From NCBI GenBank assembly GCA_019400425.1, contig JAFREE010000018.1:1-64000 (forward strand): a stretch of DNA of 64,000 bases, given 5' to 3'. A program made the translations under genes and the position numbers. Shown piece after piece: positions 610 to 59,990 of this stretch. Source of the DNA: Hymenochaete sp. R1. Lineage: Eukaryota; Basidiomycota; Agaricomycetes; Hymenochaetales; Hymenochaetaceae. Every line of letters begins with the position of its first letter. Position 1 is the first letter of the stretch. The notes beneath the pieces are model-generated. The model was given only the letters and a program-made list of their open reading frames with translations, was not told the origin of the DNA and did no database searches.

Positions 610-2840
610 ATGCTATCGAACACCACCCTTGCCCTTCACGACATTGTTGAAACTGCATCTCGGCAGGAGGTATCTGGATGGGTTGAGGAACATGTCATTC
701 AAATAAACCTTTCTATTGTGATAGCATCTGCTCTTCTTTACGATTCATGTCAGTATCTTTTTATTTGGCGAACAGCCTATCCACTAATTCAAGTTTGTTT
801 CAGTATGCACATTTGACAAAGAAGTACGTGGGCTTGTACGTTCCTTTGCTAATCCTTTTTTACGTGGATTGCGAACAGGTCAAGTACTTTTGGGTATGCG
901 TTTCCTGCGTTGTCATCACCTTGCATACTAATGACATGGTTTGGAATAGTTTGCCCCTTTCAACATCACCAAAATTGTGTATTTCTTGGCGAGTTCTCGA
1001 GAAAGTGTTCCTTTTAGTTGCATGCTTAGAGAAAACTCAGAATCGCTACATTGGTATAGTCGGGTCAGTGCTACGCATATTTGGTACGTATGTAAATATT
1101 AAAGGAATTGTGATTGAGCTCACCGATTTCTAGAAGGATCTTTAAATAGAACACTACTAGAGTGTGTGGGCCATATTCTTTATCTGCTTAAGACACTAAG
1201 GATTGTATCTAGATGTACGTTCTAAGGCGTTAATTACTTTTCGGACATGGATATCACATAAACTCTAGGCAAACTGTATTCATGGATACCAGAAATTTCG
1301 TGTGAGTTGAAACAAGCTCTTTACCTTTTCCGCGCTGAGAAATGCAATAGTCGCGATCACCATCATCACCGTCGACTGTAAGATACCCCCGGGTTTTGCT
1401 GTGGTATTCTAACCAACTCGAATAGATATTCTGACCGTCAGAGTTCTGGCATTGTACCATAAGGGTACGCTTTTACCCCTTCGCCTACTTTTGATAGATT
1501 GGTCATCGTGAACCAGAAAAGTGGATTTCTATTTTTCTTTATTCCCTGCTGGGCCTTGAAGCTATCGGAAAATTATGTCTCATGATTTACGGTACCTCAA
1601 TTGAGAATAGTAAGCTGATTGCTTTCGATGTGTGGCATAGGTTTTGCTTATTTTCTATAGTTGTTACTTTCAGACTGGCAAGGGATACCACTTTTTGTGC
1701 GGATACAAATTCTCCCGCGCTGTTTATTGCTGTTCTTGATTGGTGCGTTATTACTTCTCAGATTTCTTCTTCTTCTGCCACTCACTGTCAATTTAGGGGC
1801 TTCCCTCTCGCATTTGGACTGCTGTTAGAGTCCGATCAAGACGTTGATCAGGAGTCTGACAAATCAGGGTCACGTGACAGCGACCTGAGATTACAAGAGA
1901 TCAGGCCTAAGCTCCGGCTTAGGTAACTGATTAGACAGAGTTCGAGTAAGATATCCCACCCAGGGATAGTCTTATAAGACAGGAGAGACAAGACAGAATG
2001 TATTGACCGGAAGAGACAAAAGGTCAAATCTAAAGTACAAGAGCTACAAGGTGAGGCTCTTATATAGGCCACCCGTCTACGAGGCTGTGTACTAGTACAT
2101 GAGAAGAAACAGACGAATAAGGAAGGTGTCTTAGTAAGACGCCTGACTGATGCTGTGCACAGATCACATGCGATCATGTGCACGGAATGTCATGGAAATA
2201 CAAAGAACAAGATGACAAAGAAAGGAAATGAAGTAATCGGGGTACTTGACTAAGCACATGAACGGTGTTGAACCGTAACAACTGCTGCTTCTGATCCTGG
2301 CTCTAGTCAAAGCTGTGGAATACTGGCAATCAAAGACACTTACGGTGTCACGGCTCGTCAAGATCCTCATCACGGATCAGATTATGTACTTCGCTGCGTG
2401 AGCCCTCTTGACCCTTTTTTGCTGGGCTGATCTCATGCTGGTAAAAGTGTTATAATAAGCTCGCTTTTTTCAATATTGATCGATGTGAGCGCCTGGACCC
2501 GAGTTGCAGCGCAAGTTCTGTTAGTGGGTATAGCAAATCCTACGCTTCTCTGCATCCTCGGAAGTCGAATGTTCTTTAACTTGAAAGAGGCAGGAGAAGC
2601 CGACATCAACGAAGGGACAAATGTTAGCTCTCACTCAAGTCTTCCCACCTTCAGTAGCATTCATTTCAACGAAATTAACAACGAAGGCAATCAGTGAGTC
2701 ATTTGCTTTTTCTTCAAGTTGAAGGTTTACGCAACTGACAAAGCTTCGACAGTAATGGCTCACAGTCAATTGGAGAAGGATCTACCTGCATTGGATTTTC
2801 AACGAATGCATCTGATGCAGCTACTTCCACAGAAGTCTGA
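610..2840 (+). pseudogene. DUF6533-like 7-TM gene, array copy P1, interrupted by a solo LTR
   Basis: The copy starts MLSNTTLALHDIVETA and follows the family exon plan: exon 1 at 610-748, exon 2 at 804-823, the VKYFW exon at 879-893, exon 4 at 950-988 and exon 5 at 1041-1083. The 2-nt exon is AT at 1213-1214, followed by KLYSWIPEIS. Exon 4 ends in a GC donor at 989-990. Exon 13 (LPLAFGLL) is cut at 1822 by a 458-bp LTR, and reading on gives a stop at 1924-1926. Downstream of the LTR exon 13 resumes, the last membrane exon (ANPTLLCILGSRMFFNLKEA) is intact, and the tail ends ATSTEV. Apart from the insertion the frame is preserved, so the disruption looks recent. A truncated protein could still be made. 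Confidence 0.85.
1823..2280. mobile_element. solo LTR of an LTR retrotransposon
   Basis: The 458-bp insertion begins TGTTA and ends TAACA, a 5-bp terminal inverted repeat of the TG...CA type. It is flanked by a perfect 5-bp target duplication, ACTGC at 1818-1822 and 2281-2285. Removing the element and one duplication restores the exon reading of neighbouring paralogues (GLLL-LALVKAVEYW). It contains a TATATAG-like stretch near 2061. No gag/pol, primer-binding site or second LTR is present, so it is a recombined solo LTR. Orientation was not determined. Confidence 0.9.
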
Positions 2841-4878: not shown

Positions 4879-6632
4879 ATGCTATCCAATACCACCATCG
4901 TACTCCGAGGTGTTGACGGATACTTTCTCCCGGACGAGGTGTATTATTGGGTAAATAGATCTATTGTCTCCGGTTACTTATACACTGTAGTAGCATCTGC
5001 GCTAATTTATGATTCATGTGAGTATTCTCTTTCTCTAGTAGCTCGCTCCTCTAATGTACTTTAGTATGCACCTTGGACAAAGAAGTATGTAAAGGCGCTC
5101 GTGCAGCTTTCTATCAATCTCTACTAATCACTACAATTTGATTAGGTTAAATATTTCTGGGTACGCCTTGAGAATCCTTGCGGCCTTCAGTTGCATAGAC
5201 TGACAAGGTTTTTAACAGTCTGGCCCTTTCAGTATCACCAAACTGGTTTATTTCTTGGCGAGTGATGTGACAATATTCTCCTTTATTCCCTACTGAGAAT
5301 AATACAGAACCGCTATATTGGCGTTGTCGGGGCGATAATGGAAATATGGGGTACGTCAAATCCACTCAAAGATTCATACACAAGGTTTATGGAATATACA
5401 GCGTTCTCCTTCAATAGTACTTTATTCGAGTACGTGCCTCAGATCACAACGCGTTTGAAGATTGCTTATTGGCTACAGATGTGCGTCGTTTGGTGCTGTA
5501 TGCTCCATGGCAAGAATCACATGTATGCTGTAGGTAACTTGTACGCTTGGCTGCCTGACATATCATGTGAGTGAAAGCAGACTGCTTCTGTCTATATGCT
5601 AACAAAAGTTTAGACTGCATCATCATCACTATCGACTGTAAGATTCTTATTTTTTGCCACTGTAGTGCCTTAACCGATATGAACAGACATTCTGACCGTT
5701 AGAGTGTTGGCTTTGTACCATAAAGGTACGCGTGTATATCTTTTCGCCTTTGAACGTTCAGTCTTAGAGACGCAGAGAAGAAGATTTCGGTTGTTCTTTA
5801 TGCCTTGCTGATCCTTGAAGCCATTGCAAAAATGACTCTGATGATTGTCGGCATTTCGTCTGAGGGCAGTAAGCTGCTTTCCTTTTGTATGTGTCTCTAA
5901 TTCTGCTGATCGACTATAGTTGTCATTGGTGGTCTCGCAAAGGACGCCACTACTTGCGCTATTAGAAATGCACTCCACCCGGTCCTCTATGCTCTCGATT
6001 GGTATGTCAAAAGAACGCTTCGGTAACCATTGCGCCATTCATATTTTGTATAGGGGTATTCCTCTCGTATATGGCCTGCTGCTCTTGGTTCTAGCCTTGG
6101 TCAAAGCCGTTGAATACTGGCGTCTGGAGGCATTTCATGGGTCCCGGCTTGTCAAGGTTCTCATGACGGACCAAATTATGTATTTTTCAGCGTTGGTGTC
6201 TTTCCCTATCCTCACTTTACTAAACTAATACTGGAAAAAAGGGTTATAACAAGCTCGGCTTTCGAAATATTGAGCGATTTCGATACGACATCATTAGCTA
6301 GAGTGCAAACTTTCTTATCCGCTGTGGGAAACCCTACGCTCCTATGTATCCTCGGCAGCCGGATGTTCTTCAATCTCAAAGAAGCAGGTGAGGCCGGAGT
6401 GAATGAAGGAACGAACGTCAACTCTCATCCGAGTCGCTCTACCGTCAGCAGCATTCACTTTGATGAGCCAAACAATGGGGTTGATCGGTGAGTGCACGCA
6501 ACTATTTTTTTCAAACAAATTGTTGAACGAGAGAGCTTCTACAGAAGTGGCTCACAGTCCATCGGACACGAAGCGGTCGGCAATAGTTCCTTGTCGGGAT
6601 CGTCCATCGCTTTCACTCCGGAGGAAGTTTAA
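4879..6632 (+). CDS. DUF6533-like 7-TM protein, array copy P2
   Basis: Apparently intact 15-exon gene. The start MLSNTTIVLRGV matches the paralogues. Exon 1 (4879-5017) carries the first membrane segment, VSGYLYTVVASALIYDS. The next exons give LCTLDKE, VKYFW and GPFSITKLVYFL. Exon 4 ends in a GC donor at 5258-5259. The 2-nt exon is AT at 5479-5480 and gives E-C before NLYAWLPDIS. Exon 9 is one codon shorter than in paralogues but phase is kept. The penultimate exon has NPTLLCILGSRMFFNLKEA, then NEGTNVNSHPS and SSIHFDEPN. The tail ends FTPEEV. Function is unknown. Confidence 0.85.
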
Positions 6633-7972: not shown

Positions 7973-9755
7973 ATGTTTTCCAACTCCACCAGTGCCCTTC
8001 GCGATGTTGCTGTGAGCCTACCTCCGGAAGAGGTGTTTGGATGGGTCAAGGGAAGTAGCCTTTCCGGATACCTCTTCTCTGTGGTAGCAGCTGCTTTAAT
8101 ATACGATTCCTGTAAGCAAATCAAACCTCCGCAACTGATTTGGCTAATTTGTTTTAGTATGCACCTTTGATAATGAAGTATGTACTAGAGCCACTTGAAA
8201 TGTGTCCTCCGCTAAATGATTTTGCATACTCATTAGGTCAAATACTTCTGGGCAAGCTCTCCTGTGTTTCGACTGCCTCGCTTTTCTTTGACTCGGCTGG
8301 GAATAGTTTGCTCCTTTCAACCTCACCAAGACGGTCTATTTCTTGGTTAGCCCTTCGGCGATACAGCTTTTTTTCATAGTGCTTACAGTAACACAGAATC
8401 GCTATGTTGGCATTGTTGGATCTGTGCTACGAGTACCTGGCATGTCGATTGGATGAAAGGTTTACATTCTGACTCTAATATATTAGTTTTTGCAGTGGTC
8501 TTTCTCAATATCACGCTATTCGAGTGCGTGCCTCATATTCCAATGTAGTAAACAGGCTGACAATTTTTTCAGGTGTATGTACTTCAACGCCGAAAGACTT
8601 AGGCTACGAGTAATGCATAAACTCTAGGTAAATGGTACAAATGGATACCTAACATTTCGTGTGAGTGAAAATCAACTCTACTTTTGTTCGTATACCGAAA
8701 AAAGTGATAGATTCAATCACAATCATATCAATTGATTGTAAGGTAACAAGTTGTGGCCGTACAACGTCCTGATAATCCTGCGCAGATATTTTAACTATTA
8801 GGGTTCTGGCCCTGTACCATAACGGTACGTTTACATGCCTCTCTATTCCATGATTTAGCAGAAAGAGAGAGACAAACAGGAAAAATGATTTCAATCGTTC
8901 TTCGTGTCCTACTCGGTCTTGAGGCTACCGCCAAAATCTGCCTGATGATCTACATCACTTCAACGGAGGGCCGTAAGTTGTTCTCTCCGCATCTATATCA
9001 CTGCTCCCGCTTAATGTTGACAGTTGCAATCATTGGATTGGCAAAGGATACCACAGCTTGCGCTACATTGAACGCCCCCGCACCGATTTTTGATGTGCTC
9101 GATTGGTATGTCATTGAATTTGGTAACGTTCATGCTCTCTCATTGTCTGTATAGGGGAATTCCCCTCGTATTTGGTCTGGTCCTTTTGATTTTAGCCCTG
9201 GTCAAAGCTGTGGAATATTGGCGTCTGAAAGCATTCCACGGGTCACGACTCGTCAAGGTCCTCATGACGGACCAGATCGTCTACTTTACCGCGTCAGTTT
9301 CCACTGGCCTTCTTTGCGGCACCGCTCTCATGCCAGGAAAAGGGTTATAATGAGCTCGGTTTTCTCAATAATAAGCGACGTGAACCTTGCGAACTTTTTG
9401 ACAGTGCAAAGCCTGTTGTTCACTGCGGGCAACCCGACACTTCTGTGCATCCTTGGAAATCGAATGTTCTTCAACATGAAAGAAGCAGGAAAGGCCGGTC
9501 TTAATGAAGGAACGAATGTCGGCTCTCACCCAAGCCAATCTACCGTCAGCAGCATTCATTTCGACGAGCTTGCAAACGAAGGAGATCAGTGAGCGTATGC
9601 CATTTATCTTTTCTTATAGATAGATATATGGTTGACAGAGTGTTGGTTGTAGCAGCTCACAGTTAATTGGAGACGAGGAATGGAGCTTTGGAGATCAAGG
9701 TAGCTATGAGTACGCACTCAAGTTACTGTCTTCATATATTGACCTTATCTCTTAG
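7973..9755 (+). CDS. DUF6533-like 7-TM protein, array copy P3
   Basis: Starts MFSNSTSALRDVAVSL; exon 1 ends in LSGYLFSVVAAALIYDS. Later exons read LCTFDNE, VKYFW, FAPFNLTKTVYFL and NRYVGIVGSVLRV. Two introns need GC donors, after VKYFW (8252-8253) and after exon 5 (8440-8441). The 2-nt exon is GT at 8573-8574, followed by KWYKWIPNIS. Exon 11 seems extended at its 5' end (AERERQTGKMISIVL) unless an internal acceptor is used. The penultimate exon has LCILGNRMFFNMKEA, so the usual S-R-M is N-R-M. The last exon has drifted and ends at TAG 9753-9755, without the usual EV end. Intact if the GC introns splice. Confidence 0.78.
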
Positions 9756-12440: not shown

Positions 12441-12855
12441 ACGGCTCCCAGTGTGCTCCCGTTTGAGTCGAGGCGAGACTTTCACGTCGCCGTTATCGAT
12501 AATCCTGTTCTTCATTCAAGTTAGACCCATAGATCCATCAATGGCTCCCTTGCACGTACTGAAGTAGCCACCTTCTTTGACCTGTCTTCTTTGACCTTTT
12601 ACTTCTGAGCCTTCCAAAATATCGTTAGGTAGATTTAACGCCCCCGTATCTATTTGCCCCTTTCTTTTCATCCCGGATATCAGACCACCCGCATTGTACC
12701 ATCCTTGCCCTCTACCGCACCGTCCTTCTCAGCATGTCCGGAGTCGAGCTCCTGCACCGGATATGAGATCGAAGAAGACTACGATTGAGTTTCGGGCGAT
12801 TAGGACAAGCGACGCGAACCGTTGAAGACTGAAACGGAGGGTCGTTTCGAGGGAT
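12441..12855. other. intergenic, nothing recognised
   Basis: 415 bp between the stop of P4 and the start of homology in the P5 fragment. No gene seen. Confidence 0.6.
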
Positions 12856-13385
12856 GCTCGCGGCCCTTATCAAAGCTGTAGAATACTGACGCTTGAAGAT
12901 CTTCCAAGGATCACAGCTCGTCAGGGCTCTCGTAACCGACCAGATTGTATACTTCGTTAAGTTTTTTTTTCCTGGGCTTTGAGCGTCGTTATTCTCATAC
13001 CCGGGAAAAGGGTGATAATTTATTCGGTCATCGAAATCTTGGGCATCCTAGACTCTTCACCATTTACTATACACGATATTTTGGCTGTGGCAGGAAACCC
13101 GTTGCTTTTATGCATTCTCGAAAGCCGGATGCTTTTCAACTTGAAAGAGGCAGGAGAGGCGAAAGTCAACGAACGTCGACCCTCGACCGAGTCTCCCTAT
13201 CATCAGCAGTATCCATTTCGACGAGCCTAACAATGGAGGATATCGGCGAGCGCAAGACATCTACTATTTCTCCCCTCAAATTATGACAGAAATTTTAGGT
13301 AACAACGACTCACAGACAGATAGAGACGGGTCTGTCGCATTGGCTCCACGGTACCAGCGGGTGCCTTGCCGTCGAAGAGGTTTGG
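12856..13385 (+). pseudogene. 3' fragment of a DUF6533-like gene (copy P5)
   Basis: Homology begins abruptly inside exon 13 (ALIKAVEY) and runs to the last exon. No exon 1-12 material lies upstream. An in-frame TGA at 12887-12889 replaces the W of EYW. The 3' part of exon 13, its intron and exon 14 follow (VAGNPLLLCILESRMLFNLKEAGEAKVNE). The frame is then lost where NEGTN is expected. A relic of the final exon ends near 13385 with a GAAGAGGTTTG-type end. Truncated and degenerate. Confidence 0.85.
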
Positions 13386-30282: not shown

Positions 30283-32056
30283 TTAACTGTCCAAGTCATT
30301 AGCAGCAAATCCACTGGCATTAGAGCCACTGTTGACGATTCCCGAGTTTGCACCAACAGATGCCATCTCCATCGATTCAGAGCCGCTACTATTGATATGA
30401 CATCAATCAAAGGACGGCATGAGCGACACAAACTTACTATGCTCTTTCTTGATTAGGCTCGTCAAAATGGATGCTGCTGACCGTAGAACGACTCAGGTGG
30501 GAGCTAACGTTTGTCCCCTCATTGACGCCAGCCTCTCCCGCTTCCTTCAGATTGAAGAACATACGGCTACCGAGAATGCACATGAGCGTTGGATTCCCCG
30601 CAGCACCCAGAAAAATAGATACAGATGCCAAATCTGTATCCGACAATATCGAGAAAACCGAGCTGATTATGACCCTTTTTCCTAGAATGAGAGCAGCGAA
30701 GAGGAGTAAAGTTGGAGGGCTTACGCGGCAAAGTACATGATTTGGTCCGTTATGAGAACCTTGACAAGCCGTGAACCATGGAATGTCTTTAACCGCCAGT
30801 ATTCTGCGGCTTTGACGAGCGCTAGAACCAAAAGCAGTAACCCAAATGCGATTGAAATGCACCTGTTGAAGTAGTTAGATAGGATACTTAATAAATGAAT
30901 CATTAGATATACCAGTTGATAATTGAGAAGAAGATTGGAATGGGTAATACTGAGCAGGATGTGATGTTCTCCGTAACCTCGATTGGTTCGACTGGTAGCG
31001 CCTTCAGAGATAGTCGGCGTACAGAGGAGAAACACCACTCACCATCCTCAAGTAGAACACCATAAATTGATGTACCGCTTACTGCAATAGCTTCGAGAGC
31101 TAATGTGATATAAAGAACGATCGAAAGCTTCTTATCTGCTTTCCTGTAACCAAATTATCGAAAGCAAGAAGCTGTGGATGCCCACCTTTATGATACAGAG
31201 CCAAGACCCTAATCGTTAGAATATCTAATCAAATTGGTCAAATTATTACAACTGCGCGATTTGAAACCTTACAATCTATCGCAATGATTGTGATCGTGTC
31301 TGTTGCTGTACTCAACGCACGAAACAAAAGAGAATAGAACCTTGCTCACATGAAATGCATACTATCCATGTATACAATGCACCTGCAAAACTCTGAAAAT
31401 TCGTAGTTACACCCGTTCGATCTATAAGACATACATCTGGGACAATATCGTGAGTTTTTACAGACGCGTTGGATGTAAGTTAATTCACGCACTCAAAATG
31501 TGTCGTATTGGAAGAGACATCTGCGTAGCCGCTTGAGTCAGACCGGAGCCTGTCCCTTTCAACCATACCACATTGACGCACAAAATATGTTCAATACTGA
31601 ACCGACAATGCCGATGTAACGATTCTGCGTCCCTCTTGTCATGAATCAAATCGGGGTGCGGGACAATAAATGGCTTACCAAGAAATAGATAACCTTAGTG
31701 CTGTTGAAAGTAGCAGACTGTTTGACCGAGTCAATTGAATGCACGTCAACGAGAACACGGAAAATCATACCCAGAAGTACTTTGCCTAACCAAATGTAAG
31801 TGAGATAAAATAAAATATTGACCGAAAAGTCAAGGAGGATTTTTACATACTTCTTTGTCGAGTGTGCATACTGGGAGATGTTAGAAGGTCGGCTACTAAA
31901 GAGAAATAGAAACCCACAGGAATCATATATCAGGGCCGTTGCTATCACAGTGGACAGATAACCAATAACTTCAGTTTGTTGGACCCATGCGTATACCCCG
32001 TCCGGAGGAACGGTGTCAGAGACATCTCGAAGAGCGATGGTAGTGTTAGAAAGCAT
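30283..32056 (-). CDS. DUF6533-like 7-TM protein, array copy M1
   Basis: Starts MLSNTTIALRDVSDTVPPDG. The micro-exon after LCTLDKE reads AKYFW rather than VKYFW. Exons continue SATFNSTKVIYFL and NRYIGIVGSVLNIF. The 2-nt exon is AT at 31435-31436, then CALYTWIVCIS. Exon 11 uses an internal acceptor (K-D-K-K-L-S-I-V-L-Y) and lacks the usual K-x-C (EAIAVSGTSIYG). Exon 12 is divergent (VEPIEVTENITSC) yet keeps phase. The last membrane exon has GNPTLMCILGSRMFFNLKEA and NEGTNVSSHLS. The tail is unusual: Asn/Gly/Ser-rich, ending FAANDLDS. No stop or lost splice site. Confidence 0.82.
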
Positions 32057-33126: not shown

Positions 33127-34861
33127 TCAAAGCAAATGCGACAGATCCACCGCCTTCAACGCCCGATTTATCACCAGCTGAATGCAGCTCAATTGATTCT
33201 GCAGCCCGATCAAGTTTCATTAATGAAAGTTCAGAATGCAAACGGAATGAGCTCACTGATCACCGCCTATGTGTGCCTTGTCGAAATGAATGCTGCTGAC
33301 TGTAGAGTGATGGGAGCGAACGTTTGTGCCTTCGTTGACGCCAGCCTCTCCCGCTTCTTTCAGATTGAAGAACATTCTACTTCCAAGAATGCACAATAAT
33401 GTAGGATTTGCGACAGCCGAGAACAGAATCCGCGCCGAAAACTGCGATGTGGTGTTTGCCCCGCTCACTATTGAGAAAGCCGAGCTTATAATGACACTTT
33501 CCCCGAAGATAAGATGAGATACAGCGGCAATGATCGTGAAGGAAACTCACGCGGCGAAGTAAGTGATCTGGTCGGTTATAAGTACCTTGATGAGGCGTGA
33601 TCCATAAAACATCCTTAATCGCCAGTATTCGACCGCTTTGATCAAGGCCAGAACTAAAAGTATCAAGCCAAACGCGAGAGGAATACCCCTAGACCAGCAA
33701 TGAAGAGAGTCGTATATTTTAGAATAATTAGACATACCAATCAAGAGCATAGAGAAACGGCGCAGGACTGGTCGAATAGGCGCAAGACGTAGCGTCCTTC
33801 GCTAGTCCAACGATTATGACTGGTAACGTTCAACAAAGTGAAAACATTAAAAAATCGAGTGCGATTCACCGTTTTCGATCATGTAAAGATAAATCATCAA
33901 GCACGTTTTTGCAATGGCTTCAAAGGTCAGCAATGTATAAAGTACGACCAACACTTTTTTCTCTGCTTGTCCTCGAATCAGTTTGTCAAAAGGAAAGGAA
34001 AGAGAGGATAAGCGCACCTTGATCATATAAAGCTAAGACCCTGACGGTTAGGATATCTGGTTGAGTTGGTCAGCAGTCACTGCATTGCGGTCTGAAGCCT
34101 TACAGTCAATCGTCACGATGGTGATCAAGTCTATCTCCGTCTTCAGTTCACAAACAAAAACGATATGTGCATTTTACTCACATGAAATATTAGGCACCAA
34201 TAAATATGATGCGCCTGGAATATTAACGCTCTCAATGTTGAGCCCGGCCGTTCAGGCTTATAGCACGTACAACTAGATAATGTCATTCGCTATTCAAGTT
34301 CATTGAAGAGTAGTATACGCACTCGCTGATGGACGCATTGAAAGTGACAGCTGTGGAATCTTCAGTCCAGAGTGGTAGCTCGTTCGCGTTTGCTAACGTA
34401 CTGAATATACGTAGCAGCGCCCCGACAATACCGACATAGCGGTTCTACAACATCTTAAACACAGAGACCGCATATCATAATGAAGGACTCACCAGAAAGT
34501 AGACGATTTTAGTTAGGCTGAAAGGGGTGAACTGCTCTGGACCGGATCAACAGAGCGTATGCGGGTATGCATGAACATTATCGTACCCAGAAATATCTGA
34601 CCTGATCGAAATCATAAATGATCAGTGGAAAGGTGCATAGATATCTTCACCCACTTCTTTATTCAATGTGCATACTAGCGCATATTAGATGGTTCGATAA
34701 TACTAGCGGAAACGGAGCTTACAAGAATCGTATATCAAAGCAGACGCGACCACAGTGTAAAGATAGCCAGTGAAAGCAAACTCCTCCACCCATCCAGATA
34801 CGTTGTCCGAAGGTATGATTTCAGCGACGTCTCGCAGAACGTTGGTAGCGTTGGACTTCAT
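33127..34861 (-). CDS. DUF6533-like 7-TM protein, array copy M2
   Basis: Start taken at MKSNATNVLRDVAEI, which aligns with the other copies; an in-frame ATG 33 nt upstream (34894) would add MLRNTGSPSLT. Exons give FTGYLYTVVASALIYDS, LCTLNKE, VRYFW and NRYVGIVGALLRIF. The 2-nt exon is TT at 34271-34272, so this copy has Asp-Cys instead of Glu-Cys, followed by ASYLLVPNIS. Later exons have EKKVLVVLYTLL, IIVGLAKDATSCAYS, GIPLAFGLILLVLALIKAVEYW and ANPTLLCILGSRMFFNLKEA with NEGTNVRSHHS. The last exon is uncertain: simple splicing gives a stop at 33127-33129, while another frame with a Ser/Gly-rich tail would stop at 33113. Confidence 0.78.
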
Positions 34862-37570: not shown

Positions 37571-39337
37571 TTAGACGTTATCGGGGGTGACTGCGGCAGA
37601 GTTGACCGTGACAGATCTAACGTCGGCAAATTCATCTCTGATAGATGCAGAGGCACTACTTTCGAAGCTTAGTCGACTATGATAATATTGGATGTCAGGA
37701 GGAAAAACGCACCCTCTGCTTTCGCTGTTGGGCCCTTGAAAGCACATGTCAGTGCCTATCGAATGGTGAGAGCCGATGTTCGTTCCTTCGTTCAGACCAG
37801 CCTCTGCCGCTTCCTTCAAATTGAAGAACATCCGACTACCAAGGATGCACAGCAACGTCGGGTTCCCCACACTGGCTATGAAGCTTGACACGGAAGCCAT
37901 CGACGTAGCGCCTATGTTGTTCACTATTTCGAAAACCGAACTTATTATAACCCTTCGCAAAACATCAGCATATTATAGTATAAGACTCCATGGCACTTAC
38001 ACAGCGAAGTACAAAATCTGGTCCGTTATGAGAACCTTGATGAGCTTCGAGCCATGAAACGTCTTGAGGCGCCAATATTGCGAACCCTTGACAATGGCTA
38101 AGACCAGAAGCAGCAGACCATATGCAAGAGGAAGGCTCCTGAACGTTGCGTCAATAGAGAAGCATATGTTTTTACGCTGCGAAAGTACGTGACGTACCAA
38201 TCAATTGCAGGAAGGAGCGTAGGAATACTGGTGGCAAAGGCACAAGACGTCGTAGCCTTCGCCAAACCAACGACTACGGCTACGGACATTCAGCTCAATT
38301 GATGTTGCACGTTGAAGAGAGTGAACGTCCTTACCATCCTGAGCCATGTTATTGTAGATCATAAAAGAGAATTTTGCGATAGATTCTAGGACCAGCAAGG
38401 CATAAAGTACGAGTGATACTCTCTTCTCTACTCTCCTATGAGTGAAAGATTCAGAGCAAAAAAAAAGTAGAACCATACCTTTATCGTACAGAGCCAGAAC
38501 CCTAACAGTCAGAATGTCTAGTCGAATTGGTCATGAAGTTCGAGTAAGAGTGTCACAAGGCTCACAATCGATCGTGATGATGGTAATCGAATCTGGTTGT
38601 AATCTCAACGTATGGACCGAGGTAGAGTCTACATTCACTCACACGAGATAGAAGGTATCCATGTATACGATGCGCCTAAGACAAATCATCCTATTATCAG
38701 TTTCTCGCCTGGTGGCAAAGATAACATACACCTGGATACGTTCATTAGCTACCCAAAGTCATTGAAATATACGCAACTCACTCTGTCATTGAGGCATTGA
38801 AAGAAAAGTCTGCATTATTGTTAGCCATGATCCAAAGCTTTTCAGTCCATTCCAACGCACAGAATATGCGTAGGATTGCCCCGACAATGCCAATATAGCG
38901 ATTCTGATCAAGGTATGAGCACCAATATAGCGGCATAGTATCGGGAAACTCACCGAGAAATAGACGGCATTGGTGAATTTGAGAGGAGAGAACTGCATCA
39001 AACAGTATGAAAATCACCGAAACTGACTGAATGCAAAAACAAACTCGCCCAGAAGTATTTGACCTATGCATTGCGATCAGTACTCTTGATCTGAATCTAT
39101 AAACTTGTAAGAGACGTTTTTCACTTACTTCTTTATCAAAAGTGCATACTGAGATGTGTCGTTAGAGAATTCAATGGTTAAAGAAAGTTGGCACTCACAT
39201 GAATCATACACTAGCGCAGACGCTACTATAAGGGACAGATAATCTCCAACGATATTTTCTTTCACCCATTGGGGCACCACATCCGGCGGTATAATTCCAG
39301 CAACGTCTCGAAGGGTGAAAGAAACGTCAGTTAGCAT
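37571..39337 (-). CDS. DUF6533-like 7-TM protein, array copy M3
   Basis: Starts MLTDVSFTLRDVAGIIPPD. Exon 1 ends GDYLSLIVASALVYDS; then LCTFDKE and VKYFW with a GC donor (39047-39048). Next FSPLKFTNAVYFS and NRYIGIVGAILRIF. The 2-nt exon is GT at 38730-38731, giving E-C before ASYTWIPSIS. Exons 9-13 are regular (DSITIITID, LTVRVLALYDK, SLPLAYGLLLLVLAIVKGSQYW). The penultimate exon has VGNPTLLCILGSRMFFNLKEA and NEGTNIGSHHS. The last candidate intron is only 36 nt and in frame, so it may be retained. The tail ends AAVTPDNV at TAA 37571-37573. Confidence 0.83.
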
Positions 39338-41348: not shown

Positions 41349-43295
41349 TCACGATACATACTGCCTACGGAATACAAACCACATATCAGGAAACTTTTTT
41401 TAAGTCGTGATTGAACCACAGACATTATAAACTCACAAATTCCCTCCGTTTCTATGTTCATCAAACCGAATATCACTATCGGATGTTCGATACACCCCAA
41501 GATTTGTCCCCACATTATCGTCAGCCTCTGTCGCCTCCTTCAGATTGAAAAACATTCGGCTACCGAGGATGCAGAGGAGTGTCGGACTCCCGACAGCCGC
41601 CAGCACATCCTGCATCGTAAACTTTGTTGAAGTTTCCGCATTATTCAGAAGACCGCAGACCGAGATTGTCACCACACTTTGAGAGTTCTAATGAAATCAT
41701 TCATCCCGTTAATATCTATGAAGACTTACGCGGCGAAATACATGAGTTGGTCCCTAACGAGAACCTTCACAATTCGGGAAGTGTGGACAGTCCTGAATTT
41801 ATAAATTTTCGCGGCCTTAACCAGAGCCAGAACCAGGAGTAATAGACCATATACAGCTGGAAGGGCCCTTTTAAATGACTTGAGCCACATGTATATAACA
41901 TAGATAATTGACATACCAATCGAGAACATAAAGGGGTATTAAGTGGTTGCTTGTGGATACACAGACTGTTTTACTTTCTGTTGGGTCACCAACTAAAGCT
42001 GTCGGTAAAGTCAAAATCGCTGGGATTCATACGAAAGAAGCCATGCGTACCACTGCCAGCTAAAGTGACGTAAATCATCAAAGATACTTTCACAACGCCT
42101 TCAAGGCATAACAACCCGTAAAGAATGATGGTAAGTTTCCTCCCTAATCTTGTGTGAACAGACAGCAGGGAGCAGATATTTTATGACGGCTCACCTGTAA
42201 GGTAAAGAGCCAGGATTCTGATAGTTAGAATGTCTATTGAACAGGAAGGTTAGAACTATATAATAATTCGCTTCGAAACCTTACAGTCGATAGAAATGAT
42301 TGTAATGGCGTCTTTCAGTGCTTTCAGTGCACGGAGAGGAATAAGAATATATGTTGCTACTCACATGAGATGCTAGGGAGCCATGATGATAAATTCCCTA
42401 GAGATATTGTTAGACTTTTTTTTGACGAAGTGATTTAACCGGTCTTATAAACGCACGCCTGAGGTGGAAGGGGAACAGTAGAGATAGAGATTCGTTAGCC
42501 TTCCGGGTGCATTGAAATGTGTGTGAAACACAAACTCTAACAGCGTTGCATTAATAGAGTTTGCTGCAAAATCAATCAGTTCGAGCCAAGTCCTCCACAT
42601 TACCCCACCTAGCTTACCAAACACGCGCAGTAAGGATGCAACAATGCCGACGTAACGGTTCTGGACTACGGTAAATTAACAAACGTGGATAGCCAACTGT
42701 CTGACTTACCAAGAAGTAAACTATCCTCGTTATATTCAAGGGACGAGTTTGCTTCAAATCAGGTCAAACTATGTAAGCGAAGAGACGGGGTCACAGAACT
42801 AGAGCCCCGTGCGGTGCGGAAACCGCAGTAATTGTCAACCACTAATCTTTGAGACTGACGGTTTTGGAGTCGGCGGCTGTGGTTCTTTCTGAAGCTTCAA
42901 AAAAGAGTTTTTTGGAACTGGTATTTGCGATTTCTTCTGTCGTTCCGAAACAGCTTGATTCAAAGATTCGAGATTGCGGTTTCCGCACCGCACGGGGCTC
43001 TACACAGAACGTACCCAGAAATATTGGACCTGCCGGCGTAAGGAATAAATATTGTTTAGAAGACCAATGTGTGGGCGCGTTTTCATACCTCTTTATCGAG
43101 TGTACAAACTGAGGGCAGATTAAAACAAATCTTTAATAGAAACAGAAAGCACTTACGCGAATCGTAGGTCAGCGCAGCTGCCACTACAGCAGCGAGATAA
43201 CCATCGATGATATCGACATTGACGAATCCAGTCACTACGTTTGAGTCTAGGACGCAATCGACTTCTCGGGGAAGAATGAGGTTGCTTAACAGCAT
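41349..43295 (-). CDS. DUF6533-like 7-TM protein, array copy M4, MITE in intron 3
   Basis: Start taken at MLLSNLILPREVDCV (an ATG at 43322 is also in frame). Exon 1 ends DGYLAAVVAAALTYDS; then LCTLDKE and VQYFW. Intron 3 is swollen to about 290 nt by a 199-bp MITE. Exon 4 reads QTRPLNITRIVYFL and exon 5 NRYVGIVASLLRVF. The 2-nt exon is GC at 42457-42458, so the conserved Cys becomes Arg (E-R-N-L-S-S-W-L-P-S-I-S). Exon 12 is divergent (ALVGDPTESKTVC). The last membrane exon has VGSPTLLCILGSRMFFNLKEA, but NEGTN is changed to NVGTN and the tail is very short, stopping at 41349-41351. The frame can be kept throughout, but relaxed constraint is likely. Confidence 0.72.
42802..43000. mobile_element. 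199-bp MITE with 26-bp terminal inverted repeats
   Basis: The ends are perfect inverted repeats of 26 bp: GAGCCCCGTGCGGTGCGG... at 42802-42827, and its reverse complement at 42975-43000. Both sides carry TA (42800-42801 and 43001-43002), a TA target duplication as in Tc1/mariner-type MITEs. The interior is non-coding with a partial inverted AATCTTTGA/TCAAAGATT pair. It sits in intron 3 of array copy M4; no other array copy has it. Confidence 0.93.
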
Positions 43296-44136: not shown

Positions 44137-45917
44137 TCAGGCGTGCGTTTCAGGCTTTTTCGGGACGGATGCGATAAATGCACCCGTCAAGGGTCCAGTG
44201 CCAGCAGAACTTGAAAAATCACTAATAAACTGTAAGCCAATGCTGTCAAAGCTTTCTTAGTATCATGTTTATAGGAAAGAGTAAATTGAACGCACTCACC
44301 GATCGCCTTCGTTATCGGGTTTATCGAACTGAATGTCGGTGACTGTGGAACGATGGGAGCCGACATTCGTTCCTTCGTTGAGACCAGCCTCTCCTGCTTC
44401 TTTCAGATTGAAGAACATACGGCTGCCGAGCATACATAGGAGCGTAGGGTTTGCAATAGCTTCTAACAGAACTTGCGCTGCGAGTTTTGCTAGTTCCGGC
44501 GAATTGTTCACATCGCTCACTATCGCGACAACTGAGCTTATAATTACCCTTTGACCGGAGTGCCAATGAGATCCATGTGTTTCAGAAAGAGAGAAACACT
44601 CACGCGGCGAAGTACATGATTTGATCCGTTAACAGAACTTTGACAAGTCGAGACCCATGGAAAGCCCTCAGTCGCCAGTATTCGACGGCTTTCACCAGGG
44701 CCAATACCATAAGGAACGAACCAAACGCGAGAGGAAGTCCCCTATACAAAGGATGAATGACATGAAACTTACCGGGGTATTCAACGTACCAATCCAAAAC
44801 CTCGAGACACAGTGGCACGTTATTCGTCGAAGCACAAGCCGTAGCGTCCCTTCCCAGACCGACAGTTACAACTGGAGACGACCGGTGGCAGTGATAAAGT
44901 GCATAGGAAGGGATTGACTTACTGTTTTCTGACAAAGTGTTGTAGATCGTTAGGCAGAATTTTGCAATGGTTTCGAGGCCTAGCATGGTATAAAGTACGA
45001 CAGAGATTTTTTTCTCTGATTCCAAATGATTCAACTGTAAAAAACCTCAAAGGGCTAAACACACCTTTTTGGTACAAAGCCAAGACCCTAACGATTAAGA
45101 TATCTGATCAACTCGGTCAGTAAAACGGTATAGTATGGAGACAGACATGCCCTACAGTCGATAGTGATGATCGTGATCGAGTCTATCGCTAGTTCAAAGA
45201 TGTGAACATGGAAAGTGACCGCTTTCACTCACACGAAACATCAGGTAGCCACGTATACAGTTTGCCTAAAGTTCATATGCCATCTGTACTCTGAATAATT
45301 ACGCGTTATGCAACGCACATCTAGATCCAACCATAAGACTTCCGAATGCACTGAAAAGTGAAACGCGCACTCAAATAACGTATTATCAAGGGAAAATTCT
45401 GCGAAGCCCATTAGCTCAGAATAAGCGTATGTACACCAGTCTAACACACGGAATATGCGTAGAATTGACCCTACGATGCCAACATAGCGATTCTGTGTCG
45501 TTCCATTTTAAGCATGATGCGAATGGGTACATTGCCGAATGACTCACCAAGAAATAACTGATCTTGGGCAGACTAAATGGAGCAAACTGTATTGGATTGT
45601 GTCAATAGATTTCAAGGTAATGAGTATACAGACCAGCGAACCCAAAAATATTTGATCTGATCAAGAGTCCAGAAAAAATTAGCAGAGGAACGGTGCGAGA
45701 GCTTTCACGCACTTCTTTGTCAAGGGTACATACTGAGACAAGTCAGATGAGTTAAATACAGGTGAGGAAAGCACTCACAAGAGTCGTGAAGTAGAGCAGA
45801 TGCCAAAATAGCTAAGAGGTATCCATTAACAATGTTTACTCTCACCCATCCAGACACCTCGTCCGGCGAAATGGTTTCAGCTACATCTCGAAGGGCGATG
45901 CTAACATTGGCTTGCAT
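44137..45917 (-). CDS. DUF6533-like 7-TM protein, array copy M5
   Basis: Starts MQANVSIALRDVAETISPDE; exon 1 ends NGYLLAILASALLHDS, with H for the usual Y. Then CTLDKE, IKYFW, FAPFSLPKISYFL and NRYVGIVGSILRIF. The 2-nt exon is AT at 45319-45320, completing FSLDNTLFE-C before KLYTWLPDVS. Exon 11 uses an internal acceptor (EKKISVVLYTMLGLETIAKFCLTIY has the typical helix). GLPLAFGSFLMVLALVKAVEYW and ANPTLLCMLGSRMFFNLKEA follow, with NEGTNVGSHRS and a tail ending IASVPKKPETHA. All splice sites are GT-AG; no stops. Confidence 0.84.
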
Positions 45918-47814: not shown

Positions 47815-49567
47815 TCAGACTTCAGCAGAAACAGATGCATCCATTAAGCTTCCAGTGCTAGCGGATTCGCCTCCAATCGATTGCGAGCCTTTGCTATTTG
47901 AGCCATTCTGAGAAATAAATCCGGAAAAGTAATATGGTGCGCACTCACCCGTTAACTCGTTATACGAGTCTTCGAAATGAATGCTGCTGATCGTGGAGCG
48001 ATGAAAACTGGCACCTCCCAGCGCCTCATTTGCATCCTTAAGATTAAATATCATCCGGCTCCCGAGAATGCATAAAAGCGTAGGATTCCCTACAGCGGCA
48101 AACATGGTCTGTATCGTGAACTGCGATGAAGCACCCTCCTTGTTCAATAATTTGAACACCGAACTGGGTATCACCCTTTACTTGGCTCTGAGAAAGGTTA
48201 CGTCGAGAAAAGCGAAGAAAGATCACTCACACTGCGAAGTACTTGATTTGGTCTTTTATGAGAACCTTGATGAGCCGGGAGTCTTGGAACGTCCCCAAAT
48301 GCCAGTGGTGCATGACTCTAACCAAGGCCAGAGTCAAGAGTAACAAGCCAAATGCAAGCGGAAGGCCCCTAAGCAAATGAAAATTTGCAGTAAAGTTGAG
48401 AAAGAAAATCGACGTACCAATCGAGTTCATGGAGAATTCGAGGGGGAACTGTCTTACTAACGCAAGACGTGGTGTCTCTTGCTAGAGTAAATATCTCAAC
48501 TACGACTAGTTAGCGGGAACGACAGCCCTTATGAAAGGAAGGAACTAGCCTTTCTCCTTTAAGTTACCGTAAATCATCAAACAAATCTTCGCAACAGCCT
48601 CAATGCCTAGCAGAGTATAAAGAACCATCGAAATTTTCCTTTCTGACTTCCTATTTAGAAAGGCTTGGAAAGCAAATGGATGTGGATGCTCACCTCTATG
48701 GTACATCGCCAGGACTCTGACGGTCAAGATGTCTATACATCAACTTTCCGTTTGGTCAGAGCATTTTTGTGATGCAACAAAACATCCTACAGTCAATCGT
48801 GACGACGGTGATTGAATCTAAGACCACTCTGAGCCTGAGAATTGAGCCATTATTGTTTTCACTCACATGATATAGATGGTAACCATAAAAACAGTTCACC
48901 TGAGAAATCCATGTCATCGTCAATGATCTTTTACTTCCTGTCTTTTGACGACGCACACCTGGAAATTTTCATTAGCCTCTGAGTGTCTGTGAGAAAAAAG
49001 TACGCACTGGACCAGCGACGCATTGAAAGTGTTATCTATGAAGCCCGTCAAAAACCTTCGAACGAAAGTCTCAAGCGCTCGACAACATACAAAATATGAA
49101 CAACAGCGACCCGGCGATGCCAACATAGCGGTTCTGTGACAGTTTAAGCTTGGGGAAAATGAAAGTACTGTATTTCCGGGGGGGCTCATTACTCACCATG
49201 AAGTAAACGATCTTGGACACATTGAAGGGGGAATACTGTATCACTATGTCAATACTCAGTATTGCGGAGATGAAAAGGCAGCTGATCTGACCCATATATA
49301 CTTGACCTAGTTGGAATGCGGGACGTATTAGTTGAGGCGTGTATGAGCATCTTCACGTACTTCGTTGTCGAAGGTGCATACTGAAGTAAGTTAGACAGTT
49401 CCATTACGAGATGAAGACAGGTACTTACTAGAATCGTATATTAGAGCAGATGCACTTACAGTGTAAAGGTATACTGTAACAATGTTTCCTTCCACTCGTG
49501 TAGACACTTCCGCTGGCGGGACAGTACTGGCAAGATCTAGGAAGTAATTGGTAGTATTAGTAGTCAT
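47815..49567 (-). CDS. DUF6533-like 7-TM protein, array copy M6
   Basis: Starts MTTNTTNYFLDLASTVPPAE. Exon 1 ends TVYLYTVSASALIYDS; then CTFDNE, VKYIW, YSPFNVSKIVYFM and NRYVGIAGSLLFIF. Exon 6 ends CA rather than GA, and the 2-nt exon GT (48957-48958) therefore yields Q-C before ELFLWLPSIS. Exon 11 appears to end in a GC donor (48548-48549). Exon 13 has GLPLAFGLLLLTLALVRVMHHW. Exon 14 has VGNPTLLCILGSRMIFNLKDA but lacks the NEGTN segment. The candidate last intron (41 nt) would shift the frame if removed; reading through it gives a Ser-rich tail ending SVSAEV at 47815. The 3' end is the uncertain part. Confidence 0.76.
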
Positions 49568-51991: not shown

Positions 51992-53734
51992 TCAAACTAT
52001 TTCGGATGCGACTGCGATGGATGCACCTGCTAAGTATCCAATGCTTGTAGATTGCGAGTCGTTGCTATCGGAACTAACTTAGCCATAAATCTAAAAGAGA
52101 TGTTGATGACTCGGACATGAACTTACTGATTACCTTCAAGTGCACCGTTGGGCTCGTCAAAATGCATGCTGCTGATTGTAGAGCGATAGGAGCCGACGTT
52201 TGTTCCTTCGTTGACGCCTGCCTCTCCCGCTTCTTTCAGATTGAAGAATATTCGGCTACCAAGGATACACAGGAGTGTCGGGTTTCCGATAGCTACCAAC
52301 AAAGCTTGTACAGTAAACAGTGGCGAGGAACCCATATCCTCTACAATCTCGCATATCGAGCTGATTATAACCCTTTTTTTCAAGATCTGAGTACGGCACA
52401 GAAAAGAGAACGTGAAAGACCCACAAGGCAAAATACACGATTTGGTCCGTTATGAGGACCTTGATGAGCCGTGATCCACGGAACATCCGTAGACGCCAAT
52501 AGTCCACAGCCTTAACCAGGGCCAATACCAAGAGTAGGGAGCCATATGCAACGGGAAAGCTCCTAGATATATAGACAATGAGTCTGCAAGCAAAACATCG
52601 AATCGTTCTACATACCAATCTAAAGCATATAGGAACAGCGGGACAGTGGTCGAAGCACCACACACCGAGATGTTCTTCGCCAAATCGTCACTTTGAACTA
52701 TAGAAAATTAGTAGAAGTATAGCTTAGACAAAGAAAGAAGAGCATACAGTGGGTAGTTGAAGTAGTAAATATCATCAAAAAAACTTTTGCAGCGCCTTCG
52801 AAGCCTAGTAGGCCATAAAGAAAAATCGACATTCTCGCCCCTGCCTTTATTCGGACAAATTTTCAAGGGTAAGAAGAAGCGAAAGCGCACCTTTATCGTA
52901 CAAAGCCAATACTCTAACAGTTAGAACATCTTCCCGGGCCAGTTAGCGCATCCCAGCAAAAGCATATGAAAATCTTACAGTCGATTGTGATGATGGTGAT
53001 AGAGTCTAATGGCGCTGTCAACATGCATACGAAAAGACGATCTGTTTTTCACCTACACGAAATACTAGGCAACCATGTATATAATTTACCTAAGTCTCGT
53101 ATGTTACTTATGCCTCAGATTATTCAGCATTGTAGAACGCACACCTGGGGAGTTGTTAGCCTTTCAAATTAAGTGTAGCAAGAGGCACGCACTCGAAAAG
53201 TGTGATGTGAAGAGAATTCTCTTGAGGGCTCATTAGATCCGATTCAACCATAAGGCTTCTACCAAGGACGACTCACGAAGTATGATCAAGATTGACCCAA
53301 TGATTCCAACATAGCGATTCTCAGATACTCGTAAGCATGACGGGATGAGAAAATCTTTTTAGTCCTCACCAGAAAGTAAACGCCCTTAGTGATCTTGAAA
53401 GGAGTAAACTATTTCAGAAGATGTTAATTGCAATTGAGATGGTGAGTATGCTGATGAATTTACCCAGAAATATTTAACCTGATTGAATGGGTGAAAAATT
53501 AGTGGAATATTGTACAAGTCGTTCACATACCTCTTTGTCGAAAGTACATACTGACACAAATTAGAAAGATCAAGTAAAAGAGGAAATTCACTCACAAGAA
53601 TCGTACAACAAAGCTGTTGCTACTATAGCTGACAGGTAGCCAACAATGTAATTTCCCTTTACCCATTCAGACACCTCAACCGGGGTCAAGGCGACGGTGA
53701 CATCCCGAATGGCAAGGGTAGTATTGAATAGCAT
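51992..53734 (-). CDS. DUF6533-like 7-TM protein, array copy M7
   Basis: Starts MLFNTTLAIRDVTVALTPVE. Exon 1 ends VGYLSAIVATALLYDS; then CTFDKE, VKYFW, FTPFKITKGVYFL and NRYVGIIGSILIIL. Exon 6 (QNSLHITLFE) must use the acceptor after CTCAAG to give its 28 nt. The 2-nt exon is GT at 53143-53144, followed by KLYTWLPSIS. Exon 11 starts at an internal acceptor (R-A-R-M-S-I-F-L-Y). Exon 12 is divergent (QSDDLAKNISVCG). IGNPTLLCILGSRIFFNLKEA, NEGTNVGSYRS and SSMHFDEPN follow, with a Ser-rich tail ending VASEIV. No defect seen. Confidence 0.85.
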
Positions 53735-55986: not shown

Positions 55987-57742
55987 TCAAATGCCTTCAG
56001 AAGCATCTAAGACGGAAGTAACTATCACAGAACCAACGCCAACGGATACATCCCCTGTTGACCATGAGCCACTACTTCCAGAATGTTACCAGTCAAGATT
56101 GCATCGCAGAGGGTAAGAACTCACCGATCGCCTTCTGTATTAGGCTCGCCGAAATAAATAACACTTGTATTGGAATGATGAGAATCAGCATTTGTTCCTT
56201 CGTTGACGCCTGCCTCCCCAGCTTCCTTCAAGTTGAAGAACATCCGGCTTCCAAGTATGCACAGCAGTAGAGGATTTCCCGCGGCAACTAGCACGTTTTG
56301 TGCTATGGGCACCTCCGAGAACCCAGTCCGGGATAGGATCTCGATGACCGAGCTCATTATGGCGCTTTATTTGAAATAAGAACTGTTCCCCGGAAAACGG
56401 AAATAAGGTACTCACGCAGCGAAGTACATAACTTGGTCCGTTATGAGAACCTTGAAGAGCCGTGAGCCGTGAAAATGCTTTATTCGCCAGAAGTGTATAG
56501 CCTTATATAGGGCCAGTACTAATAGTAAGAAGCCGAATATGGGAGGAATGCCCCTATGCAAAGAAAGTGAGCAGTATCCGCATGGAATGTAATCAAAATA
56601 CCAATCAATAATTATGAAGAATGATGGGATGATAACTGCATCTCCACAGGTCTGAGCGTCCGCTGCTAAAGCAATGACCTTGACTATTGTTGGAAATTCA
56701 ATTATATTCCAGCATAGATCGAATGCAACCGTACTGACCTTCCTTCGCTAACGTTGTATAAATCATGAAAGATGATTTTACAATAGCTTCAAAAACCAGC
56801 AGAGTATAGAGGACGATCGATAAGTTCATCGCTGTTGATCTAAGTTGTTAAACGCCGTTCGGGTGAAGAGATTCAATAACGCACGGTTATGGTACAAAGC
56901 CAAAACCCTGACGATCAAAATATCTGATCACAAAGGTTAGTTCAACATAATGGCGGACTCTAGAAACTTACAATCGATAGTGATGATGGTTATGGAGACT
57001 AGATATTTCTTCAATCAACGAAATGAAGCTCTTATCGATTTCACTCACAAGATATACCAGGTGCCCAGTCAGCCAATTTGCCTTGAGAATGTGACAGCAT
57101 GTGTATGCGTTTTATTCAACTCGATTATTAACGTACGCACACCTAGAGAGGATCATTAGACTTTAAAGACACTATAATATCATAACTTACTCGGATTCTG
57201 TGACATCGAACGAGAACTCTTAAATGATGATCAGCTCGGGCTCAAACTCTTAATAATGCTAACGTACGAAGCATTTCCGAAATCGCTCCGATAATCCCGA
57301 TATAACGATTCTAAAGAACACTCACAATCAGAGGAAAAGGCATGTTCTATCGCTAAGCTCACCATGAAATAGCTGGCCTTGCTCAAGCTGAGTGGACGAG
57401 ACTGATTTGGATCGTGTTTGTGGATGCAACCGTATACCTTTTCTCAACAACGTACCCAGAAATATTGCGCCTAATAGCTGTATGTCAAAACATTATCATT
57501 CATGGGGAACAGCAGAGAAATCTACGCACTTCTTTGTCGAGCGTGCAGACTGGGGTGTGTCAGAGTTCGCCCATTTAGAAACGAAGAAATAGACTATACT
57601 CACCTGCATCATAGAATAGCGCGGAACTTACTGCTATGTTGAGGTAAGTCCCAATGAGGTCTTCTTCAACCCGTGAAGGGACCACAATAGGCGGCACGGT
57701 ACCAGAAATATCTCGAAGAGCAAGAGAATCGTATAGGGACAT
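55987..57742 (-). CDS. DUF6533-like 7-TM protein, array copy M8
   Basis: The most divergent start of the array, MSLYDSLALRDISGTVPPIV. Exon 1 ends GTYLNIAVSSALFYDA; then VCTLDKE, AQYFW, SRPLSLSKASYFM and NRYIGIIGAISEML. The 2-nt exon is GT at 57141-57142 and gives E-C before KLADWAPGIS. Exon 10 ends in C instead of G; exon 11 (MNLSIVLYTLLVFEAIVKSSF) follows in frame. Exon 13 reads GIPPIFGFLLLVLALYKAIHFW. Exon 14 has AGNPLLLCILGSRMFFNLKEA and NEGTNADSHHS, with a tail ending DASEGI. No stops and canonical GT-AG introns suggest it is functional despite the divergence. Confidence 0.82.
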
Positions 57743-58294: not shown

Positions 58295-59990
58295 TTAAAA
58301 CCTGGTGTCGAGCACTGGCCGCAGATCGAAGGTTCTGAAACATTTTGGTCAAAAATTCGCTACAACATGGTAAGAACTCACTCGCCACCCTCAACACCAG
58401 GCTCATAGAAATGTATAATACTTGTGTTGGAATGATCAGAGTCAACATTTAATCCTTCGTCAACACCTGCCTCTCTAGCTTCCATCAAGTTGAAGAACAT
58501 CCGGCTACCGAGGATGCACAGGAGCGTAGGACTTCCTGCAACAGACAAGCAGACATCTTGTACCGAAAGCCGCGACGAAGTTCGCAGATCGGTTAAGATT
58601 GCGCAAATAGAATTTACGATTACTCTTCGTAGAATGAGAAAGAATGAGAACAGCGTTGTTAGGTATAAGTTCAAAACAAACTTACGCTGCAAAGTACATA
58701 ATCTGGTCCGTCAAAAGGACCTGGATCAGCTGTGACCCGTGTAATGCATTTTTGCGCCAATAGCCAACAGCCTTAGCCAGAGAAAGTGCCAAAAGCAGTG
58801 CGCCAAAGCCTATGGGAGTGACCCTGCAAAGGCGGGTAAGTGGGTAGAGTAAGTATTGGGTAAGAGACATACCAATCGATATAAACGAAAAAGTGCGGGA
58901 GAGTATTTGCTATAGCACAGGACGTGGTATCTTTGGCTAAGTTCACGAGTACAACTAATGACAAGTCGCAGAAACTTCAATATGAATAGGGGAGATACGT
59001 ACTGCTCTGTGAATAGTTACCGTAAATTGTCAAAAAGACTTTTACGGCAACTTCAAGACCTAGCAATGTATACAAGGCAATCGACAATCCTCTCCCTGAG
59101 TTCCCTCCAGCGAGTTACATCAAATGGGATTATTTAATGCTCACTTTTGAAATATAGAGCCAAAACTCTGACGACCAGGATATCTAGACAAAGAAATTAG
59201 ACGTTAATATCGAGTTACGTTGAGATCTTACAATCCATAGATATAATCGTCGTTGAGTCTGTCTCTGAACTATCAGCGTACGACAAGAATAAGTATGCTC
59301 CCACATACACGAAACATCAGGTAACCATCTGTACAACTTGCCTAGATATTCACATCGTTCGTTGAGCTTTCAAGCGCATGATATACGCAAAATCGTACAC
59401 CTGTAGTTGTTCATTATCCTTGAAAAGCAGAGAAGTTTATGACCTACTCAGGCAATGAACCGTTCTTAACGGGCCCTGAAAGGACACTTAATCAAACGAT
59501 GAAGTCCGTTGTTCACCAACGCACAGAAAATAGTCAAAATAGATCCAACAATGCCAATATAGCGATTCTATGACTTCCATGAGGATACATTGCTCGGACG
59601 CCACGGTGCCTGACGCACTAAGTAATAAATGATCGTTGGCGTATTGAATGGGGCAGGCTGTTTTTTTCCGTGTCAATGGATTACGAATCAACGAGAGTAC
59701 ATAAAAACATACCCAGAGATATTTTACCTGTAAAAGGCAGATAAAGTTTCAGTGGCGAAGTACACGAGCACTTTCACGTACTTCTTTGTCGAAGGTGCAA
59801 ACTGGAGAAAATAAGAGGATTCCCTTTCTGGGTAGAGCTGGATGTGCTTACGAGAATCGTAGACTAATGCGGATGCTAGCACAACGAAAAAATATACCTC
59901 AGCGGTATCTTCTCTCATCTGTTGGGCCACCACGCTTTGGGGCAGGGTATCGGTGACGTCTCGAAGAGTTATGGTGGAATTAGACATCAT
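58295..59990 (-). CDS. DUF6533-like 7-TM protein, array copy M9
   Basis: Outermost minus-strand copy. Starts MMSNSTITLRDVTDTLPQSV. Exon 1 ends EVYFFVVLASALVYDS; then CTFDKE, VKYLW, PAPFNTPTIIYYL and NRYIGIVGSILTIF. The 2-nt exon is GT at 59399-59400; its donor is gtacga, slightly off the gtRYgt pattern. KLYRWLPDVS follows. Exon 10 ends in A; exon 11 (RRGLSIALYTLLGLEVAVKVF) keeps frame. Exon 13 is VTPIGFGALLLALSLAKAVGYW with IQVLLTDQIMYFAA. Exon 14 has AGSPTLLCILGSRMFFNLMEA, and NEGTN becomes DEGLN. The tail is short (TFDLRPVLDTRF) and unlike other copies. Confidence 0.82.

Follow-up and report, generated by a model that had tools for sequence, protein, structure and literature searches.

Two nucleotides between two short introns very probably form a real, constitutively included spliceosomal exon (exon 7 of 14) in the DUF6533 membrane-protein genes of Hymenochaete sp. 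R1. The site is flanked by ordinary splice sites, it is conserved among the members of the family and the reading frame is shifted when the two bases are left out. An in-frame conserved exon had been proposed here from the letters of one stretch of 64,000 nucleotides (the window), which is part of contig C90 of a genome of 27.8 Mb. This reading is supported, as all the comparative tests agree with it, and we infer from the DNA that the two bases are spliced in.

The gene family and the predicted exon

The repeated genes of the window are members of the DUF6533 (PF20151) family, judging by the Pfam match of copy P4, whose predicted protein scored 50.4 bits against PF20151, above the curated cut-off of 24.1 (E 2.3e-13 in a scan of P4 alone). 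In the excerpts of the paper on this domain it is described as specific to basidiomycetes and as found in integral membrane proteins (PMC10949477). A crude hydropathy average picked out five segments.

The model of P4 was built by hand. It starts with the ATG at 10694, its stop ends at 12303, and it has 13 introns of 46-62 nt and 14 exons of 139, 20, 15, 39, 43, 28, 2, 33, 27, 39, 93, 82, 138 and 244 nt. The original prediction had given an exon sum of 1,026 nt for this copy, which we could not reproduce, since our own model totals 942 nt with the 2-nt exon; without it the frame shifts into stops. P4 has two further tiny exons, the second and the third (20 and 15 nt; window 10879-10975, plus strand), whose lengths recur in most models. 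Just 3' of P4 there is a fragment of the family with the C-terminal part only (window 12854-13176, plus strand).

Regarding the 14 window copies that keep the region (Table 1), every one of them has ag-NN-gt between exons 6 and 8, NN being the two bases, and at the DNA level the description given before was borne out in nearly all its details. NN is AT in five copies, GT in seven, TT in M2 and GC in M4; exon 6 ends in GA in 13 copies and in CA in M6; the donor of intron 7 reads gtRYgt in 13 copies and gtacga in M9. The encoded pair would be Glu-Cys in 11 copies, Asp-Cys in M2, Gln-Cys in M6 and Glu-Arg in M4, also as claimed. All 14 sites exist where they had been placed, but the number given as the first base in the minus-strand copies is the lower coordinate, and the true first transcript base is one higher.

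Table 1. Window coordinates of the predicted 2-nt exon in the 14 copies and of its neighbours in P4
Feature	Copy	Position	Strand	Remarks
2-nt exon AT	P1	1213..1214	+	gene pieces 610-2694; exon 13 interrupted
2-nt exon AT	P2	5479..5480	+	aligned gene 4879-6479
2-nt exon GT	P3	8573..8574	+	aligned gene 7973-9589
Exon 6	P4	11210..11237	+	28 nt, ends ...GA
Intron 6	P4	11238..11288	+	51 nt, gtacgt...ctctag
2-nt exon GT (exon 7)	P4	11289..11290	+	gene 10694-12303
Intron 7	P4	11291..11343	+	53 nt, gtgcgt...ctccag
Exon 8	P4	11344..11376	+	33 nt, begins GC AAA; KLYTWLP exon
2-nt exon AT	P5	15949..15950	+	aligned gene 15356-17007
2-nt exon AT	M1	31435..31436	-	aligned gene 30452-32056
2-nt exon TT	M2	34271..34272	-	aligned gene 33256-34861
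2-nt exon GT	M3	38730..38731	-	aligned gene 37727-39337
2-nt exon GC	M4	42457..42458	-	aligned gene 41439-43295; sole copy with Arg for Cys
2-nt exon AT	M5	45319..45320	-	aligned gene 44299-45917
2-nt exon GT	M6	48957..48958	-	aligned gene 47968-49567
2-nt exon GT	M7	53143..53144	-	aligned gene 52147-53734
2-nt exon GT	M8	57141..57142	-	aligned gene 56124-57727
2-nt exon GT	M9	59399..59400	-	aligned gene 58381-59990

Some copies have peculiarities elsewhere. Exon 13 of P1 is split by several hundred extra bases (window 1797-2397, plus strand; the aligned pieces are 1797-1829 and 2307-2397), and this copy is possibly no longer intact, although by its letters it retains the 2-nt exon. Intron 3 of M4 has 263 nt (window 42752-43014, minus strand) versus about 54 nt in its relatives, and intron 5 of P3 has a GC donor, gcatgt (window 8450-8510, plus strand).

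Our own spliced aligner, run with the P4 protein, found the identical 2-nt exon in every one of the 14 window copies. A profile made from these copies was then run on 20 loci outside the window, where the models with a score above 150 were kept, and on 6 more. Overlapping loci had given two models twice (one of L039 and one of L040), and the duplicates were removed before counting. The resulting set contains 54 models, all of one genome, 14 from the window and 40 from elsewhere; no fewer than 13 more loci of this subfamily lie outside it. The 2-nt exon is predicted at the corresponding position in 53 of the 54 models, that is to say, in all the 53 that keep the region. The lone exception, on L050, has unrelated DNA 5' of exon 8 and no agNNgt there. 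This minus-strand copy is rearranged, and the unrelated stretch directly 5' of its exon 8 contains a repeat of about 25 bases.

Across the 53 models NN is AT in 30, GT in 18, TT in 4 and GC in 1. The predicted pairs of residues are EC (28), QC (12), LC (4), DC and TC (2 each), and ER, MC, IC, KC and GC (1 each). Exons 6 and 8 measure 28 and 33 nt in 47 of the 53. Because the profile had been built from copies already modelled with the exon, we masked the residues around the site and reran the alignment, and the 2-nt exon was still chosen in 52 of 53 (the exception is L054+3925). The margin over the best model lacking the exon was below 5 score units in 8 of 53, among them P1, P3 and M5 of the window, and there was no margin for L054+3925. 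The spliced aligner yields spurious tiny exons where the alignment fails, as happened in exon 13 of P1, in one L050 model and in distant paralogues. In the first model of L054 a single exon of 35 nt takes the place of exons 2 and 3 (20 and 15 nt), likely by intron loss, and the 2-nt exon is kept.

Constraint on the two bases and their splice signals

With the 2-nt exon spliced in, base 1 of NN would complete one codon and base 2 would begin the next one, which is a TGY cysteine codon in 52 of 53 models, base 2 being its T. To align the paralogues had been suggested as a test of codon-level constraint, and in this test NN changes as codon letters do. The changes were counted on a family tree built without the tested columns. 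Base 2 changed once and base 1 changed 13 times, mostly by synonymous A/G exchanges, whereas 30 non-consensus positions of the introns changed 17-30 times each on the same tree. The G of TGY, which lies across intron 7, did not change at all. The third letter of the cysteine codon changed 16 times; apart from one G, only T and C replaced each other (T or C in 52 of 53).

The original prediction also held that the exon is needed to keep the frame, and indeed every one of the 53 models runs into a premature stop when the exon is skipped. A stop likewise follows when intron 6 is kept (49 of 53) or when intron 7 is kept (47 of 53). The cysteine completed by the two bases is residue 96 of P4, counting Met as 1, and it is present in 52 of 53; a second cysteine, residue 172 of P4, is present in 52 of 53 as well. 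In many seven-helix receptors a disulphide joins helix 3 and the second outer loop. As a guess, the two conserved cysteines may form a disulphide, the second one being in a later loop.

Regarding the splice sites, the flanking acceptors are AG in 53 of 53 for both introns, and the donors are GT in 52 of 53 for each intron, the other one being GC. For L044 the GC donor is at intron 6 in one model and at intron 7 in the other. The lengths of the introns are ordinary, 47-77 nt for intron 6 and 47-66 nt for intron 7 in the 53 models.

Chance was assessed by dinucleotide-preserving shuffles, in which AGNNGT was required with both introns of at least 44 nt. It was present in 6.1% of the shuffled intervals, versus all 14 real intervals of the window and 52 of the 53 of the family, where the exception has a GC donor; this agrees with the earlier argument against coincidence. 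AGNNGT never occurs twice in one interval. The strict form YAG-NT-GTRNG appeared in around 0.1% of the shuffles versus 13 of 14 window copies and 46 of 53 in the family. In the other introns (41 models of 14 exons) the base before the donor is G in 204, T in 130, A in 105 and C in 53 of 492 cases. Base 2 of NN is T although G, not T, is the commonest base before other donors.

The branch-site motif CTRAY was found in intron 6 above the shuffles (49% versus 16%). For intron 7 we found no branch-site excess over the shuffles, either with CTRAY (22% versus 18%) or with YTNAY (51% versus 55%). Introns 4 and 10 are as poor in CTRAY as intron 7.

Alternative readings of the site

The alternative that survives best, which we nevertheless regard as very unlikely, is a single intron of about 105 nt whose donor lies two bases downstream (GAGT, then NN...), the central agNNgt being unused. 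Read-through of exon 6 often gives GAGTGC (Glu-Cys), so that gtgc or gtgt donors would encode the same residues, and where NN is GT the mRNA would be identical to the product with the 2-nt exon. Since in 7 of the 14 window copies an extended exon 6 would thus give the same mRNA, only the copies with AT, TT or GC are diagnostic (P1, P2, P5, M1, M2, M4 and M5). GT or GC stands at the required place in 16 of 53 models (one GT and six GC among the 14 of the window). However, the other 37 have AA, AC, GA, AT, AG, CA, TT or TC there, which makes such an intron impossible, and GC donors are rare in these genes. Furthermore, a single intron would account neither for the fixed place of agNNgt with NT in 53 copies nor for the single change of base 2. 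Counting any in-frame single intron, alternatives with GT donors exist in 18 of 53 models (5 of 14 in the window), or in 23 of 53 (9 of 14) if GC is allowed. When these alternatives were enumerated, the most widely common one was found in only 7 of 53 genes.

A stwintron or a recursive splice site, in which the inner intron would go first and the remainder, including NN, would be removed as one piece, is extremely unlikely here. The two introns do stand back to back as in the fungal stwintrons, and where NN is GT a first splice would make overlapping donors, GTgt. Nevertheless, in 35 of 53 models NN is other than GT, so no donor could begin directly after the AG, and the loss of NN shifts the frame, with a stop in all 53. 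A zero-length recursive site does not fit either, given these 35 models and a frame that is broken if no bases are kept. In the excerpts of PMC5639578 stwintrons are two consecutive introns that need successive splicing, as here, but the splice signal of their outer intron is interrupted; in our genes intron 7 has its own full donor after NN, each of the two introns is complete, and two coding bases would stay in the message.

That the genes are decayed and the pattern is a relic of a common ancestor without present use is scarcely credible, in spite of the interrupted exon 13 of P1 and of M4 with its lost cysteine and long intron 3, as in the predicted frame of the 14 window models there is no stop after the site, and the third positions of the codons are variable, in contrast to the constant Cys, GT and AG.

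Proposed splicing, known systems and probable origin of the exon

If the two bases are an obligatory exon, introns 6 and 7 would be recognised singly, by intron definition. An exon of 2 nt could hardly hold the complexes of the 3' and 5' splice sites together, and their simultaneous recognition would be sterically unlikely. With intron 6 out first, exon 6 plus NN would adjoin the gtRYgt donor, and with intron 7 out first, NN would head exon 8; the second step would be an ordinary one in both cases. Intron 6 may be removed first because it has the better branch-site signal.

As in microexons (15 nt or less), we find a canonical acceptor and a canonical donor, and inclusion keeps the frame. The comparisons with known systems draw on excerpts of the cited papers. 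An exon of 1 nt was proven in APC11 of Arabidopsis (PMC4674806), and land plants have kept such 1-nt exons in both APC11 and VPS55 (PMC8831610). They resemble our case in being below the size for exon definition, between two GT-AG introns, needed for the frame and long conserved (PMC4674806, PMC8831610). Furthermore, intronless relatives of the plant genes hold the base inside an exon (PMC8831610), and distant paralogues do likewise here. However, the plant exons have 1 nt, occur in one or two genes per genome and are proven by RNA, while the present one has 2 nt and is predicted from the DNA of a single fungal genome, in no fewer than 53 paralogues. When the single base of an APC11-type exon was changed artificially to TT, splicing was correct in Arabidopsis and not in rice (PMC4674806).

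Among fungi, the P450 genes of Phanerochaete chrysosporium, also a basidiomycete, have many introns of 45-55 bp and tiny exons as these genes do, but their shortest reported exon has 6 bp (PMC1184071) and ours 2 nt. Xlr2 of Trichoderma virens has a fungal microexon too; it is alternatively spliced as a glucose-dependent switch in one gene (PMC11121469), whereas inclusion seems obligatory and family-wide here. Snowball (SNB1) of Coprinopsis cinerea, a predicted seven-helix membrane protein, has the DUF6533 domain in common with our genes (PMC10949477).

No report of a 2-nt exon was found in the open-licence literature, which lacks most subscription papers; one match on two nucleotides concerned two nucleotides of exon 2 and not an exon of 2 nt. 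The novelty would lie, pending RNA, in the size and the setting (2 nt, a fungal family), as tiny exons as such are already known. Should RNA bear it out, a single fungal genome would contain a naturally occurring 2-nt exon in dozens of its genes, and the copies would offer ready natural variants to test how the spliceosome copes with an exon below the size for exon definition. The models that automatic annotation gives for these genes are probably broken or wrongly joined right at the nearly invariant cysteine.

Regarding the origin, further DUF6533 loci were found in the genome with the Pfam model, and 15 of them were read by eye. The cysteine codon is uninterrupted in 8 of the 15 (L065, L068, L069, L070, L072, L074, L075 and L080; letters checked), and L067, L071, L073, L076, L078 and L079 were not resolved by eye. 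In L069 (GAAGCATGC), L072 (GAGTGT) and L074 (AGATGC) one and the same exon contains both the preceding codon and that of the cysteine. An intron just 5' of the preceding codon, with both codons joined, is found in L075 (GATTGC), L080 (GACTGC), L070 (GTATGC) and L068 (CATTGT), and L065 has an intron at the place of intron 6 and lacks intron 7. As the codon is whole in these 8 distant relatives, the 2-nt exon likely arose when a second intron, intron 7, was acquired two bases away from intron 6, which was already there.

Tandem duplication as the origin received no support, since introns 6 and 7 of the same gene resembled each other barely more than shuffled ones did (mean -6.5; shuffled -8.2, s.d. 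3.7). A scan of the viral contigs for relatives found none, and the genome-wide pattern GARGCNTGY was rejected as too common to be informative.

One of the 15 distant loci, L066, has its own predicted 2-nt exon, GC, between introns of 56 and 55 nt (L066 322-390), which lies two bases further 5' with respect to the cysteine codon. This one is weaker evidence than the family-wide exon because the aligner makes spurious tiny exons. Taken together, one may speculate, though we doubt it more than we believe it, that an obligatory 2-nt exon is kept in more than 50 receptor-like paralogues whose proteins require strictly sequential splicing, that exons of this kind arise preferentially at this hot spot, as the one of L066 would suggest, and that inclusion could act as a family-wide on/off switch, given that skipping always shifts the frame.
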